DNA of 64,000 nucleotides from Ruminococcus bovis (GTDB lineage: Bacteria > Bacillota > Clostridia > Oscillospirales > Acutalibacteraceae), in the NCBI RefSeq assembly GCF_005601135.1, contig NZ_CP039381.1:1051941-1115940 (forward strand). The letters run 5' to 3'. How positions within the stretch are numbered: position 1 is the stretch's first letter; each line of letters begins with the position of its first letter. The notes beneath the pieces were generated by a model. The model had not been told where the DNA came from and did no database searches. It saw only the letters and a list, made by a program, of their open reading frames with translations. Position numbers and translations under genes: made by a program. Below are positions 33,636-63,944 of the stretch, one piece after another.

Positions 33636-35447
33636 TTAGTCTGAATCAAGTTTAAGAACTGCCATAAATGCCTCTTGTGGAACTTCAACAGAACCAAGCT
33701 GACGCATTCTCTTCTTACCTTCTTTTTGCTTTTCAAGTAGTTTCTTTTTACGAGTAATGTCACCACCGTAACACTTAGCAAGAACATCTTTACGCATAGC
33801 CTTAACAGTTTCTCTGGCAATAATCTTGCCACCGATACAAGCCTGAATTGGCACTTCAAACAACTGTCTTGGAATTTTTTCCTTTAGTTTTTCTGCCATT
33901 TTTCTTGCTCTGCCATATGCTTTATCTGCGTGAATAATAAATGATAGTGCGTCAATTACTTCACCGTTTAGCATAATGTCAAGTTTAACAAGCTGACTTT
34001 CTCTGTAATCCTTTAGTTCATAGTCAAAGGATGCATAGCCTCTTGTTCTGCTTTTTAGTGTGTCGAAGAAATCATAAATAATTTCAGCAAGTGGCATTTC
34101 ATAGTGAATATCAACTCTGTCTGAGTCAATGTAATCCATACCAACAAAGATACCTCGTCTATCCTGACAAAGCTCCATAATGTTACCTACATATTCTGAT
34201 GGTGCATAAATATGAGCATCAGTCATAGGTTCTTCAGCCTTTGCAATAAGTGCAGGGTCAGGGTAGTTGGTAGGGTTACTAATCATTTCAACAGTACCAT
34301 CGGTTTTTGTAATTCTGTAACTAACTGATGGTGCAGTTGTAATAAGGTCAAGGTTGTATTCTCTTTCAAGTCTTTCTTGGATAATTTCCATATGAAGCAG
34401 ACCTAAGAAACCACATCTAAAACCAAAGCCCAAAGCAACAGAAGTTTCTGCGTCAAATGTTAGTGATGCATCATTTAGCTTTAATTTTTCAAGTGCATCT
34501 CGTAAGTCGCCGTACTTTGCACCGTCAGCCGGATAAATACCACAGAATACCATTGACTGTGCTGCTCTGTAGCCCGGTAGTGGTTCTTCTGCCGGATTGG
34601 ATACAAGAGTAACTGTATCACCAACTTGGGCATCCTGTAGGCTTTTGATAGATGCTGCAATATAACCAACTTCACCGGCATATAGACCATCTCTCTGTTC
34701 AAGAGAAGTTGCTCTCATATAACCACATTCAACAACTTGGAATGTACTGCCTGTTGCCATTAATTTAAATTGATCACCGGGATGAATTTGACCGTCTTTA
34801 ACTCTAACATAAATAATAACGCCCTTGTAGCTATCGTAGTAACTATCGAAGATTAATGCTCTTAGTGGGTCGTTGTAGTCACCTGTTGGAGCAGGTACAT
34901 CACTGACAATTCTTTCCATAACATCGTGAATGTTAAGTCCTGTCTTTGCTGATACACAAGGACAACCTTCTGCCGGAATACCGATAACATCTTCGATTTC
35001 TTTAATTACTCTGTCCGGATCGGCACTTGGTAGGTCGATTTTGTTAACAACCGGTACAATCTCAAGACCACCGTCAACTGCAAGATATGTGTTAGCAAGG
35101 GTTTGAGCCTCAATACCTTGACTGGCATCAACAACAAGCACAGCACCTTCACAAGCTGCAAGTGAACGAGATACTTCATAGTTAAAGTCAACATGACCGG
35201 GAGTATCAATTAAGTTAAACTGATAAGTTTCACCATCATCTGCTTTGTACAGTAGTGTTACTGCGTGAGCCTTAATGGTGATACCTCTTTCTCTTTCAAG
35301 GTCCATATCGTCCAGAATTTGGTCTTCCATTTCTCTCTTTGCAACTGATTCTGTCTGTTCAAGAATACGGTCGGCAAGTGTGGATTTACCATGGTCGATA
35401 TGAGCAATTATGCTGAAATTTCTAATTTTGTCTTGTGGAAATGACAT
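33636..35447 (-). CDS. lepA: Elongation factor 4 (LepA)
   Basis: A 603-residue translational GTPase, the normal LepA length, acting on stalled or mispositioned ribosomes. G motifs: [14 protein letters not shown] (G1), RGITIKA (G2), DTPGHVDF (G3), NKIDLP (G4) and SAKTG (G5). The LepA-specific C terminus ends [52 protein letters not shown] precedes the ATG. It stands alone, bounded by terminators at 33584-33614 and 35508-35536. Confidence 0.98.
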
Positions 35448-54960: not shown

Positions 54961-55383
54961 TTATGGTTTTACAACTATATCAAAATATCCATCAGGATCA
55001 GTAGTTAAAGTTGGTTTCGTTGTAGTAGTAGGTAGTATTATTGTTGATGGTTTTGTTGTAGTTTCATCTTGTCCTTTACTTGGGAAAGATGAAATCATCT
55101 TAACTGAATACTTCTGTATCATTGTTGCATCAGCAACTGTTACTTTACCATCTTTATTTACATCAGCTAAAGTAAGTTCTTCAGCTGAGAAATCTTCATT
55201 GTTTACAATTTTGTGTTGAATGTAAACTGCATCTTTTACATTGATTTTGCCATCTTTGTTTACATCACCAATTCGGTAGTTGCTTGTAACTTTAGCATCA
55301 TTATTACCGGAATATGCCGATACAACGCCGATTGAAGTAATAGCCATTGACAGCAAAATAACTAAACTAATTATTTTTTTCAT
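54961..55383 (-). CDS. Secreted protein with a type I dockerin domain
   Basis: 140 residues. The signal peptide is residues 1-23 (ends VSA). The dockerin spans about 36-95 with two calcium loops, GDVNKDGKINVKDAVYIQHK (D40-D51) and ADVNKDGKVTVADATMIQKY (D74-D85). The C terminus is a Thr/Pro-rich linker ending DGYFDIVVKP, with no catalytic domain. Dockerins bind cohesins in cellulosome- or amylosome-type assemblies. A dockerin without an enzyme could be a competitor, an adaptor or a fragment. It lies 18 bp before the RiPP-like peptide gene in the same operon. Confidence 0.88.
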   Translation of the reverse strand: MKKIISLVILLSMAITSIGVVSAYSGNNDAKVTSNYRIGDVNKDGKINVKDAVYIQHKIVNNEDFSAEELTLADVNKDGKVTVADATMIQKYSVKMISSFPSKGQDETTTKPSTIILPTTTTKPTLTTDPDGYFDIVVKP

Positions 55384-61208: not shown

Positions 61209-61222
61209 AAACCACTCAAATG

Positions 61223-61262
61223 AAAGAAAGCTAACCCTCCCCGGTTAGTTTTCTTTCTTTTG
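61223..61262 (+). terminator. Terminator after the large secreted protein
   Basis: GAAAGCTAACC and GGTTAGTTTTC pair (one G-U) around CTCCCC, then a T-rich tail. The core GCTAACC/GGTTAG recurs in terminators at 10128, 11552 and 63912. Confidence 0.8.
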
Positions 61263-61329
61263 TAAAGGTTATTGAATAACAAATGTGGGTATGATAAAAT
61301 ATTAAAAGATGTATTAAGGAAGTGAGAAA

Positions 61330-63906
61330 ATGAAGAAAATTGTTGTGGGAATTTTAGCTCATGTTGACTCAGGAAAAACAACACTTTCTGAGACTTTGTT
61401 ATATCAATCCGGCAACATAAGCAAAATCGGTAGAGTTGACAACAGAGATTCTTTTTTGGATACATTTTCTCTTGAAAGAGCAAGAGGTATTACAATCTTT
61501 TCTAAACAAGCAGTACTGAATTATAAGGATACACAGTTCACCTTAATTGATACTCCCGGTCATGTGGATTTTTCTGCTGAAACGGAAAGAACTTTACAAG
61601 TTCTTGACTATGCAATTCTTGTAGTAAGTGGTACTGAGGGTGTGCAAAGTCATACCAAAACATTGTGGAAACTTCTTGCAAAATATAATGTGCCTTGCTT
61701 TATTTTTGTTAACAAAATGGACCTTGATGGTGCTAATAAAGGTATAGCAATGGCTAAGTTAAAGTCAAAGCTAAGTGATAATTGTGTTGACTTTGATACT
61801 GTAGATACTGATGAATTTTATGAAAATATTGCCCTATGTGATGAAGATTTATTGGTTAAATATGAAGAGGGTGTTTTACAGAAACCCGATATAGTAAAAG
61901 CAATTAAGGATAGAAAGATTTTCCCTTGTATGTTTGGAGCAGCACTTAAATTAAAGGGTACTGAAGAATTCCTTGATTGTATTTATAATTATTCTGAGAT
62001 GAATAGTTATGGTGATGAATTTGCCGGTAAAGTGTATAAAATTGCTGAGGATAAAGGTCAAAGGCTAACTTATCTAAAGGTAACAGGTGGCACATTAAAG
62101 GTAAAAGAAATCTTGCAAAGTCCTAAGAATAAAGAGCAAGAAAAGGTACAGCAGATTAGGATTTATTCCGGTGAAAAGTTTACTGCTATTCAAGAGGCTA
62201 CTGCCGGTACAATTTGTGCAATAACCGGTATTACCTTTACTTCTTCCGGTGACGGTTTAGGTGTTGAAAATAATTCAAGTCTGCCGGTATTAGAGCCGGT
62301 ACTTACATACAAAATCAATTTGCCGAGTGAAGTTGATGCCCATACTGCATTGCAAAAAATGAAAATACTTGAAAATGAAGACCCTCAGCTAAAAGTAGAA
62401 TGGAATAGTAGACTGGGAGAAATTCAAGTAAAGTTAATGGGTGATATTCAGCTTGAAGTGTTACAGTCTATTATTTCAGATAGATTTGGCTTTGATGTAA
62501 CATTTGGTCAAGGAAATATTATCTATAAAGAAACAATAGAAAATACAGTTGAGGGTGTAGGTCACTTTGAACCATTACGCCATTATGCAGAAGTACATTT
62601 ACTTTTAGAGCCAACTAAAAGGGACAGTGGCTTAACCTTTGCAACAGATTGTAAAGAAGATTTGCTTGATAAAAACTGGCAAAGGCTTATCCTTACCCAT
62701 TTGTATGAGAAAACTCATATAGGTGTGCTTACAGGTTCACCTATAACAGATATGAAAATCACTTTAGTTTCCGGTAAAGCTCACCCAAAACATACTGAGG
62801 GTGGTGACTTTAGACAAGCCACATATAGAGCAGTTAGACAAGGTCTTAGGGAAGCAAAAAGTATTTTGCTAGAACCGGTTTATGAATTTACATTAGAAGT
62901 GCCAACAGAAAATGTAGGCAAGGCTATGGCTGATATTCAGTATATGAGTGGTTCATTTAACCCACCTGAACTTGACGGTGATTTTTCAATAATTACAGGT
63001 ACTGCACCTGTATCTACAATGCACGATTATACTAAGGATGTTATCCAATATACCCATGGTAAAGGCAAGTTGGTGTGTAACTTAAAGGGTTATGAACCTT
63101 GCCACAACAGTGAAGAAGTTATTGAAAGTATCGGTTATGATTGTGACAGTGATGTTGACAACACTTGTGACTCAGTATTTTGTTCTAAGGGTGCCGGTTA
63201 TAATGTTAAGTGGGATAAGGTTAAGTCCCAAATGCACCTAACAAGTGTATTATCTCAGCCTAAAGTGACAGAAACTATTGCTGAAAAGAAAAGGTCATTT
63301 ACTAACTATAAAGGTAAAGAAGATTTGTTTGCACTTGATAATGAGTTAATGCAAATTTTTGAGCAAACTTACGGACCTATTAAAAAGAAGAAAACAAATG
63401 TAGAGAAAAGACATTTTGACTTTACAAAGAAAGACCCTAAGTATAAACCATCAAAAGCTCCTAACTATGACGGTAAAGAATACTTGTTAGTTGATGGATA
63501 TAATGTAATCTTTGCATGGAATGATTTAAAGGAACTTGCAAAAACCACCATTGATGGTGCAAGAGAAAAATTGCTGAATATTCTCTGTAACTATCAAGGG
63601 TACAAAAAATGTGAAGTAATAGTAGTTTTTGATGCCTACAAGGTTAAGGGTGGTGTAGGTGAAGTTGATAAGCTGAATAATATTAACATTGTCTATACCA
63701 AAGAGGCAGAAACTGCCGACTCCTATATTGAAAAAGTAACTAAAAAATTAGCCAAGAATAATAGGGTAAAAGTTGTTACTTCTGATGGATTAGAGCAACT
63801 TATTATTATGGGTAACGGTTGCCTTAGAGTGTCATCACAAGAATTTTATCAAGAAGTAAAAGAGGCTGAAAACAATATAAGAGAAATAATTTCAAAAACT
63901 TTTTAA
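61330..63906 (+). CDS. TetM-like ribosomal GTPase fused to a YacP/Rae1-type NYN nuclease domain
   Basis: 858 residues. The EF-G/TetM-like part (1-650) has G1 AHVDSGKTT (10-18), RARGITI (G2), DTPGHVDF (G3) and NKMD (G4), plus domains II-V with the late segment MADIQYMSGSFNPPELDGDFSIITGTAPVS. A basic linker follows. The C terminus (about 713-858) is a NYN/YacP domain: KEYLLVDGYNVIFAW (D722), VIVVFDAYKV (about D768), ETADSYIEK (about D797) and VTSDGLEQL (about D819) form the acidic nuclease site. Rae1/YacP cuts mRNA at the ribosomal A site. The fusion could clear the A site and cut the mRNA there. Tetracycline resistance should not be assumed. Confidence 0.9.
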   Translation: MKKIVVGILAHVDSGKTTLSETLLYQSGNISKIGRVDNRDSFLDTFSLERARGITIFSKQAVLNYKDTQFTLIDTPGHVDFSAETERTLQVLDYAILVVSGTEGVQSHTKTLWKLLAKYNVPCFIFVNKMDLDGANKGIAMAKLKSKLSDNCVDFDTVDTDEFYENIALCDEDLLVKYEEGVLQKPDIVKAIKDRKIFPCMFGAALKLKGTEEFLDCIYNYSEMNSYGDEFAGKVYKIAEDKGQRLTYLKVTGGTLKVKEILQSPKNKEQEKVQQIRIYSGEKFTAIQEATAGTICAITGITFTSSGDGLGVENNSSLPVLEPVLTYKINLPSEVDAHTALQKMKILENEDPQLKVEWNSRLGEIQVKLMGDIQLEVLQSIISDRFGFDVTFGQGNIIYKETIENTVEGVGHFEPLRHYAEVHLLLEPTKRDSGLTFATDCKEDLLDKNWQRLILTHLYEKTHIGVLTGSPITDMKITLVSGKAHPKHTEGGDFRQATYRAVRQGLREAKSILLEPVYEFTLEVPTENVGKAMADIQYMSGSFNPPELDGDFSIITGTAPVSTMHDYTKDVIQYTHGKGKLVCNLKGYEPCHNSEEVIESIGYDCDSDVDNTCDSVFCSKGAGYNVKWDKVKSQMHLTSVLSQPKVTETIAEKKRSFTNYKGKEDLFALDNELMQIFEQTYGPIKKKKTNVEKRHFDFTKKDPKYKPSKAPNYDGKEYLLVDGYNVIFAWNDLKELAKTTIDGAREKLLNILCNYQGYKKCEVIVVFDAYKVKGGVGEVDKLNNINIVYTKEAETADSYIEKVTKKLAKNNRVKVVTSDGLEQLIIMGNGCLRVSSQEFYQEVKEAENNIREIISKTF

Positions 63907-63911
63907 TACTG

Positions 63912-63944
63912 AAAAAAGCTAACCGTTATGGTTAGCTTTTTTTA
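63912..63944 (+). terminator. Terminator after the GTPase-nuclease gene
   Basis: AAAAAAGCTAACC and GGTTAGCTTTTTT around GTTAT, followed by T. The rest of the window (63945-64000) shows nothing further. Confidence 0.9.

Follow-up and report, generated by a model that had tools for sequence, protein, structure and literature searches.

Two groups of described proteins are closest to the gene analysed here. Recent reports describe a characterised member of the Rae1/YacP nuclease family that cuts mRNA in a translation-dependent manner (PMC10100781, PMC12320835), and in the Rae1 protein of B. subtilis the class II mutation R166P was judged by the authors to be a loss of function (PMC6613710). Among the tetracycline resistance proteins, TetM meets the drug with Pro509 at the tip of its domain IV (PMC7456112, PMC8161019), and a TetM-like protein of Bacillus toyonensis, Btoyo_0322, makes B. 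subtilis resistant to tetracycline (PMC5209696). A protein architecture that unites the two types was noted in 2015 in ten Clostridiales species, and a new resistance mechanism was floated for it (Atkinson et al., 2015; PMC4342817). An initial sequence-only reading of this DNA, whose author knew of no assigned role for such a fusion, was overstated on this point. Within the portions of the open-licence PMC literature that were searched we found no later description of the fusion, and the main text of PMC8547433 has no passage on it.

In the window, a 64,000-nucleotide stretch of the Ruminococcus bovis chromosome, the forward-strand gene at 61330-63906 encodes an 858-residue protein in which a translational GTPase, a linker and a NYN_YacP (Rae1-type) nuclease succeed one another, as established from the list of open reading frames, Pfam and sequence matches in the PDB. 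The reading frame starts with ATG, and direct reading places a ribosome-binding-like stretch, AAGGAAGTGA, at 61316-61325. Every domain scored above its own Pfam cut-off. The G domain (residues 4-221, 61339-61992; GTP_EFTU, E 6e-51) contains the NKMD motif and His78 and is followed by EF-G domains II and III (residues 231-311 and 322-393, 62020-62508; EF-G_D2 and EFG_III), IV (residues 396-510, 62515-62859; EFG_IV) and V (residues 513-594, 62866-63111; EFG_C), all on the forward strand like the features that follow. A family-specific C-terminal extension recognised by alignment conservation (residues 587-639, 63088-63246) leads into the linker (residues 640-716, 63247-63477), which is disorder-like and of low model confidence save for one conserved helix, FALDNELMQIFEQTYG (residues 667-682, 63328-63375). 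The nuclease domain occupies residues 719-856 (63484-63897) and carries D722, N725, D768, D797 and D819, as identified by Pfam, PDB matches and alignment. Its NYN_YacP match (E 8e-51, 172.7 bits versus a cut-off of 24.6) is the sole one in a profile search of the host genome. The PDB sequence searches matched residues 1-591, in parts, to EF-G, TetO and TetM chains, and residues 718-855 to the YacP entries 5mq8 and 5mq9 (E 1.4e-24), which we take to be the B. subtilis YacP structures. The obtained architecture confirms the proposal, made from the letters alone, of a five-domain EF-G/Tet-like GTPase joined to a NYN_YacP domain with intact acidic residues (D722, D768, D797 and D819).

Hairpins with T runs lie on both sides of the gene, an intrinsic terminator-like one 3' of it at 63910-63944 and a second 5' of it at 61222-61257, suggesting that the fusion gene is a one-gene unit. 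A weak promoter-like match (TTGAAT, 17 nt, TAAAAT) was located at 61272-61300 by a motif search against shuffles, and such matches upstream of the gene were not enriched (7 versus a shuffle mean of 10.6). No conserved operon partner emerged: across 154 fused loci, no immediate-neighbour cluster recurred in more than 6, and no cluster at any position in the flanks recurred in more than 17 loci of those compared. The GC content of the gene is 34.6%, versus 35.7% for the window, and its closest named records belong to Ruminococcus, Eubacterium and uncultured Clostridia, with Ruminococcus bromii at 71% identity. An assembly or frameshift artefact was ruled out by the collection of 155 different fused reading frames longer than 780 aa. 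The PADLOC library gave no match for the fusion, leaving a defence-system reading without support. The AlphaFold model of the protein is weak (pLDDT 69, pTM 0.44) and too weak to tell anything about domain placement; in a structure comparison it matched EF-G and TetM chains alike and barely covered the NYN part. Elsewhere in the window, another GTPase reading frame of 603 aa at 33636-35447 (reverse strand) shares ~40% identity with the fusion G domain over 134 residues and, by its length, is probably TypA/BipA-like, as we presume. A small secreted-looking protein at 54961-55383 (reverse strand) has DVNKDGKI-type repeats and appears dockerin-like by eye, which is our assumption.

Residues K16, T17, D74 and H78 of the GTPase half are kept in all 155 fused proteins. 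The tip loop of domain IV, AHPKHTEGGDFR (residues 484-495, 62779-62814), places Lys487 in the column of TetM Pro509 and reads HxKHTEGGDFR in the fused proteins; Lys occupies this column in 151/155 fused and 17/19 GTPase-only proteins, versus Pro in 8/10 rows from the Tet clade. Three residues of the extension after domain V, Cys591 (155/155 fused proteins), Cys618 (151/155) and His636 (151/155), are common to fused and GTPase-only members but show no conservation among the Tet and EF-G sequences; the extension is possibly metal-binding. The linker varies between 59 and 113 residues (median 76, n = 155), and in the AlphaFold model pLDDT falls below 50 over residues 600-712. In the alignment of the 155 fused proteins the linker helix follows the pattern D.EL..IFE.TYG, which is strictly kept in 121 of them and has a variant form in some class-level lineages; E672 (151/155), I676 (146/155) and T680 (147/155) mark it as a candidate docking motif.

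A quick-method GTPase tree of 74 rows, without an AU test and with an outgroup that was not quite one-sided, united the fused proteins and their GTPase-only relatives in one clade (SH-aLRT 99), separate from the clade of TetM, TetO, TetW and TetB(P) (96). The reading of the GTPase as TetM-like thus holds for its domain layout, whereas the tree and the profile scores given below put it in a clade of its own. All 37 fused rows fell into one group (99) that also contains two GTPase-only proteins, L285 of Ligilactobacillus salivarius and L212 of genome G271; the exact positions of these two within the group are loose, and the arrangement reads as two putative nuclease losses.

GTPase-only relatives were found in the order of genome G673, in family f65, in Paenibacillus and on megaplasmids of L. 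salivarius, at 37-50% identity to the fusion GTPase. The order of G673 has them in 25 of 348 genomes at 44-50% identity, a count in which two are broken and G673 itself is included. In the order of the window, 14 genomes, none of them NYN-positive, carry a GTPase of the clade that lacks NYN, indicating that the GTPase serves a function independent of the nuclease. Thirteen of them share 37-49% identity with the fusion GTPase (one has several stops), and the GTPase of genome G239 (L350:1982-3940) is of fusion type at 58% identity, with no NYN domain within a 7-kb stretch; in this genome the nuclease has likely been lost recently. Of 60 genomes chosen as carriers of standalone rae1 (two of which proved to be broken fusions), 5 have such a GTPase, all in family f65, as does 1 of 80 standalone genomes sampled from 94 in the phylum scan. 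Single GTPase-only genes of separate interest are L285:2986-4920 on the L. salivarius plasmid pMP118, which adjoins rpsN and whose place inside the fused group suggests transfer and nuclease loss; L076:451-2625 of genome G457, whose 724-aa product extends ~70-90 residues beyond the length of its relatives; and L213, L214, L216 and L217 of the window's order, which adjoin a galactokinase-like gene (recognised by Pfam for two and by cluster for the others).

The NYN acidic residues are conserved alike in fused and standalone rows. D722, N725 and D768 are kept in all 155 fused and all 36 standalone rows of the alignment, and D797 and D819 in 154 of the 155 fused proteins, the sole exception being a protein cut at a contig end. 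Loss of the acidic residues in most homologues, named in the sequence-only reading as evidence that would refute it, was thus not observed, since at least 154 of 155 fused proteins keep each residue. With the catalytic residues of both GTPase and NYN domain conserved, both halves of the protein look active.

The two forms differ at the C-terminus, where standalone Rae1 proteins have a median of 51 residues (47-54) after Arg833 with a net charge of +3, and fused proteins a median of 26 (0-62) with a net charge of -3, some fused lineages having a long tail. The window protein, with 25 residues after Arg833, falls short of the ~50-residue basic tail of Rae1. Residue 166 of B. subtilis Rae1 presumably falls in this tail, given a length of ~170 residues. 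Reduction of the basic tail in the fused forms suggests that docking on the ribosome has passed to the GTPase, although it could also mean a changed target. In a tree of 91 NYN rows built with a careful method, the 55 fused rows formed one side of a single branch (97/83, 96% of bootstraps) and the 36 standalone rows the other. The sampled fused domains are therefore one clade, for which a single fusion event would suffice.

Three taxon scans yielded 329 genomes with NYN_YacP, all distinct although five genomes of the phylum scan overlap the earlier scans: 175 carry the fusion, 152 a standalone gene, 2 a contig-edge fragment and none both. Together with the 155 different fused frames, this bears out the suggestion that the fusion is widespread. 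Addition of two family scans raised the numbers to 180 fused and 155 standalone, again with no genome carrying both. In the window's order, NYN_YacP was detected in 101 of 295 genomes (99 fused, some of them truncated by contig ends or frameshifted, the 2 contig-edge fragments, and no complete standalone gene), and the remaining 194 have it in no form, indicating that the function is dispensable. The class scan detected it in 128 of 196 genomes, with 70 fused (5 of them broken) and 58 standalone by frame length. In the phylum scan, 109 of 199 genomes passed E 0.001, with genome G518 below the cut-off, the fusion in 12 and a standalone gene in 96; five standalone matches, all from family f111, were weak (61-73 bits). 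Broken copies were counted as fused (G469 on two contigs, G344 with a frameshift, and G363, G430 and G374 at contig ends), as were G150, G193, G205, G203 and G275 of the window's order. The reading frame of G107, cut by a contig end, and the contig-end fragment of G215 were excluded from both classes, G526, listed with a 308-aa frame, has a standalone rae1 of ordinary length, and G051, in which a fusion-clade GTPase is cut by a contig end, was left out of all counts. Second NYN matches were a split copy in G203, a frameshifted copy in G275, a second fused copy in G424, and matches below the cut-off in G249 and G427. As separate observations, a full-length fusion was also found at L287:5397-8024 in MT835563.1, an unverified 'Bacteriophage sp.' record that may be bacterial DNA, since 1 of its four other reading frames matches PHROGs (endolysin-like), and another fusion occurs in MT835514.1.

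Because this one-or-other pattern could reflect lineage alone, families with both states were examined. In genus g173, the single genus of the family of G352 in the collection, all 11 genomes have one form only (7 fused, 4 standalone), and three of the fused genomes have a second match below the cut-off. The same holds for all six genomes of family f47, to which G402 belongs (2 fused, 4 standalone), one fused genome, 61% complete, carrying two fused copies. Both states are also present among the genomes of family f46. The independent evidence thus comes from few families (f46, f47 and f51); elsewhere the form tracks the lineage, and the large totals are non-independent.

The former position of the nuclease gene was compared in both kinds of genome. 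Among 19 standalone loci drawn from the 58 of the class set, with clusters named by Pfam, rae1 lies between rlmB and sigH in 13, before sigH without an adjoining rlmB in 3 (one near a contig end) and after rlmB only in 1; the other 2, with a divergent rae1 outside the cluster, were left unscored. The rlmB region, including ~1.5 kb per side, was retrieved from 30 fused genomes, and in the 25 readable by cluster sigH directly follows rlmB in 10, other genes do so in 15, and rae1 in none. Within one genus, G352 has the order mrnC-rlmB-rae1-sigH, versus mrnC-rlmB-sigH in G319 and G427, where the fusion lies elsewhere. The rlmB locus of the host genome (L243) has no adjoining rae1.

The architecture, the conserved active sites, the grouping of the fused nucleases in one clade, the one-or-other occurrence and the rae1-free old locus in the fused genomes examined were all directly observed. 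They are best explained if the fusion is the Rae1 of its lineage, a translation-dependent mRNA endonuclease that left the rlmB-rae1-sigH locus and now forms one protein with a ribosome-binding GTPase from a separate clade, and we regard this explanation as probable. The one-or-other pattern against standalone rae1 lends support to the mRNA-quality reading proposed from the sequence alone.

As for mechanism, we infer docking on the ribosome, A-site cleavage, the order of events and GTP gating as follows. The GTP-bound EF-G-like body would bind the factor site when the A site of a ribosome is open or slowly filled, and its domain IV would probe the A site. Hydrolysis of GTP and departure of domain IV would then leave the tethered NYN domain near the A-site mRNA, which it would cut. 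The mRNA would thereby be marked for decay, and the ribosome could be rescued by trans-translation. Since a Rae1-like nuclease would need the A site that domain IV enters, the halves would have to act in turn and never at once, which a linker of the length and low model confidence described above would permit. More tentatively, the protein could be a GTP-gated A-site ribonuclease, whose EF-G-like body tests a paused ribosome, and may clear or re-set its A site, before hydrolysis releases the Rae1 cut. The GTPase would thereby time a choice between resuming and destroying, and in many lineages of the class to which the window belongs this gated form would have superseded the ungated Rae1; we consider this a possibility worth stating, short of an expectation.

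A role in drug response, in which the GTPase would dislodge A-site drugs such as tetracycline and the nuclease would clear the mRNA of ribosomes that are still blocked, would extend the 2015 suggestion, and we consider it unlikely. It draws on the Tet-protein domain layout, on the resistance conferred by Btoyo_0322, a TetM-like protein that may or may not belong to the fusion's GTPase clade (its printed primers found no match in 32 loci within 6 mismatches), and on database names. Of the two fusions on plasmid records, H2 is named 'TetM/TetW/TetO/TetS family' and H1 'translation factor GTPase family protein', so that the tetracycline-resistance annotation foreseen for the family applies to the one and not to the other; GTPase-only members also carry Tet-family annotation in NCBI records. 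Against such a role, the fusion scores 432.9 bits versus the 775 cut-off of the NCBIfam model NF012153 (tet_protect) and 286.7 versus 1100 for NF033148, models that the controls TetB(P) (959.4 versus 775) and Tet(W) (1310.7 versus 1100) pass; it is likewise below the cut-off of the EF-G equivalog TIGR00484 (315.4 versus 659.4). Its GTPase clade is separate from that of the Tet proteins, and Lys replaces Pro509 in nearly all members. Moreover, the host already has a Tet(W)-class gene outside the window (L228:2095-4014, in G000:C1:1684500-1690500; 1284.7 versus 1100), and full-length fusions occur in only 2 of 1038 plasmid records with any related match (E 1e-20). From scores, tree and tip loop, a TetM orthologue was ruled out, and the 'tetracycline resistance' label on the fusion is probably a misannotation.

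The NYN domain could instead trim or degrade rRNA, tRNA or mRNA while ribosomes are being assembled or recycled, with the GTPase as a mere carrier and no A-site event. A role of the domain in rRNA and tRNA maturation has been proposed (Anantharaman and Aravind, as cited in PMC4342817), two genes for rRNA enzymes, rlmB and mrnC, accompany rae1 at its locus, and the C-terminal tail is altered in the fused forms; the translation-dependent mRNA cleavage of the characterised family member speaks against this explanation, to which we give little credence. A neutral union, in which two ribosome-related genes were joined once by chance and co-inherited without functional coupling, would account for the single clade of fused NYN domains, for the five f65 genomes that carry both genes apart and for G239, which has the fusion-type GTPase without NYN. 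It is hard to reconcile with the retention of both active sites, the linker helix and the extension across 155 different proteins, and with the lack of any scanned genome that has a standalone rae1 beside the fusion, and appears highly improbable. The fusion as the lineage's Rae1 remains our preferred explanation. If it holds, many gut Clostridia share a protein family that often bears a wrong tetracycline-resistance label, and counts of resistance genes may be too high as a result. The fusion would also offer a single-chain tool for studying how Rae1 reaches the A site, and the genus with both states a natural experiment on which paused ribosomes have their mRNA destroyed.

Compared with Rae1/YacP of B. 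subtilis (PF05991), the fusion shares the nuclease domain with all its conserved acidic residues, is likewise present in one copy per genome as a rule, and replaces the gene of the rlmB-rae1-sigH locus. Rae1, however, is encoded by a separate gene of ~170 aa and has a basic tail of ~50 residues, whereas the nuclease of the fusion sits behind a 640-residue translational GTPase, elsewhere in the genome, and in most fused forms ends in a shorter, acidic tail. With TetM, TetO, TetW and TetB(P), its sister clade in the present tree, the fusion GTPase shares the EF-G-like five-domain layout and intact GTPase motifs at 28-34% identity, but it lacks Pro509 and adds the Cys/His extension and the nuclease. 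The GTPase-only relatives belong to the same GTPase clade where placed, and most have the tip loop HxKHTxGGDFR and the Cys/His extension, but they stop at residue ~637, without the linker and nuclease. The relevant passage of Atkinson et al. (2015; PMC4342817) describes the same architecture and contains no mention of a replacement of Rae1, of the rlmB-sigH locus or of a separate GTPase clade. To that description the present analysis adds the replacement of standalone Rae1, the vacated rae1 position, the common clade of the fused nucleases, the placement of the GTPase outside the Tet clade, and the changes in tail and linker.
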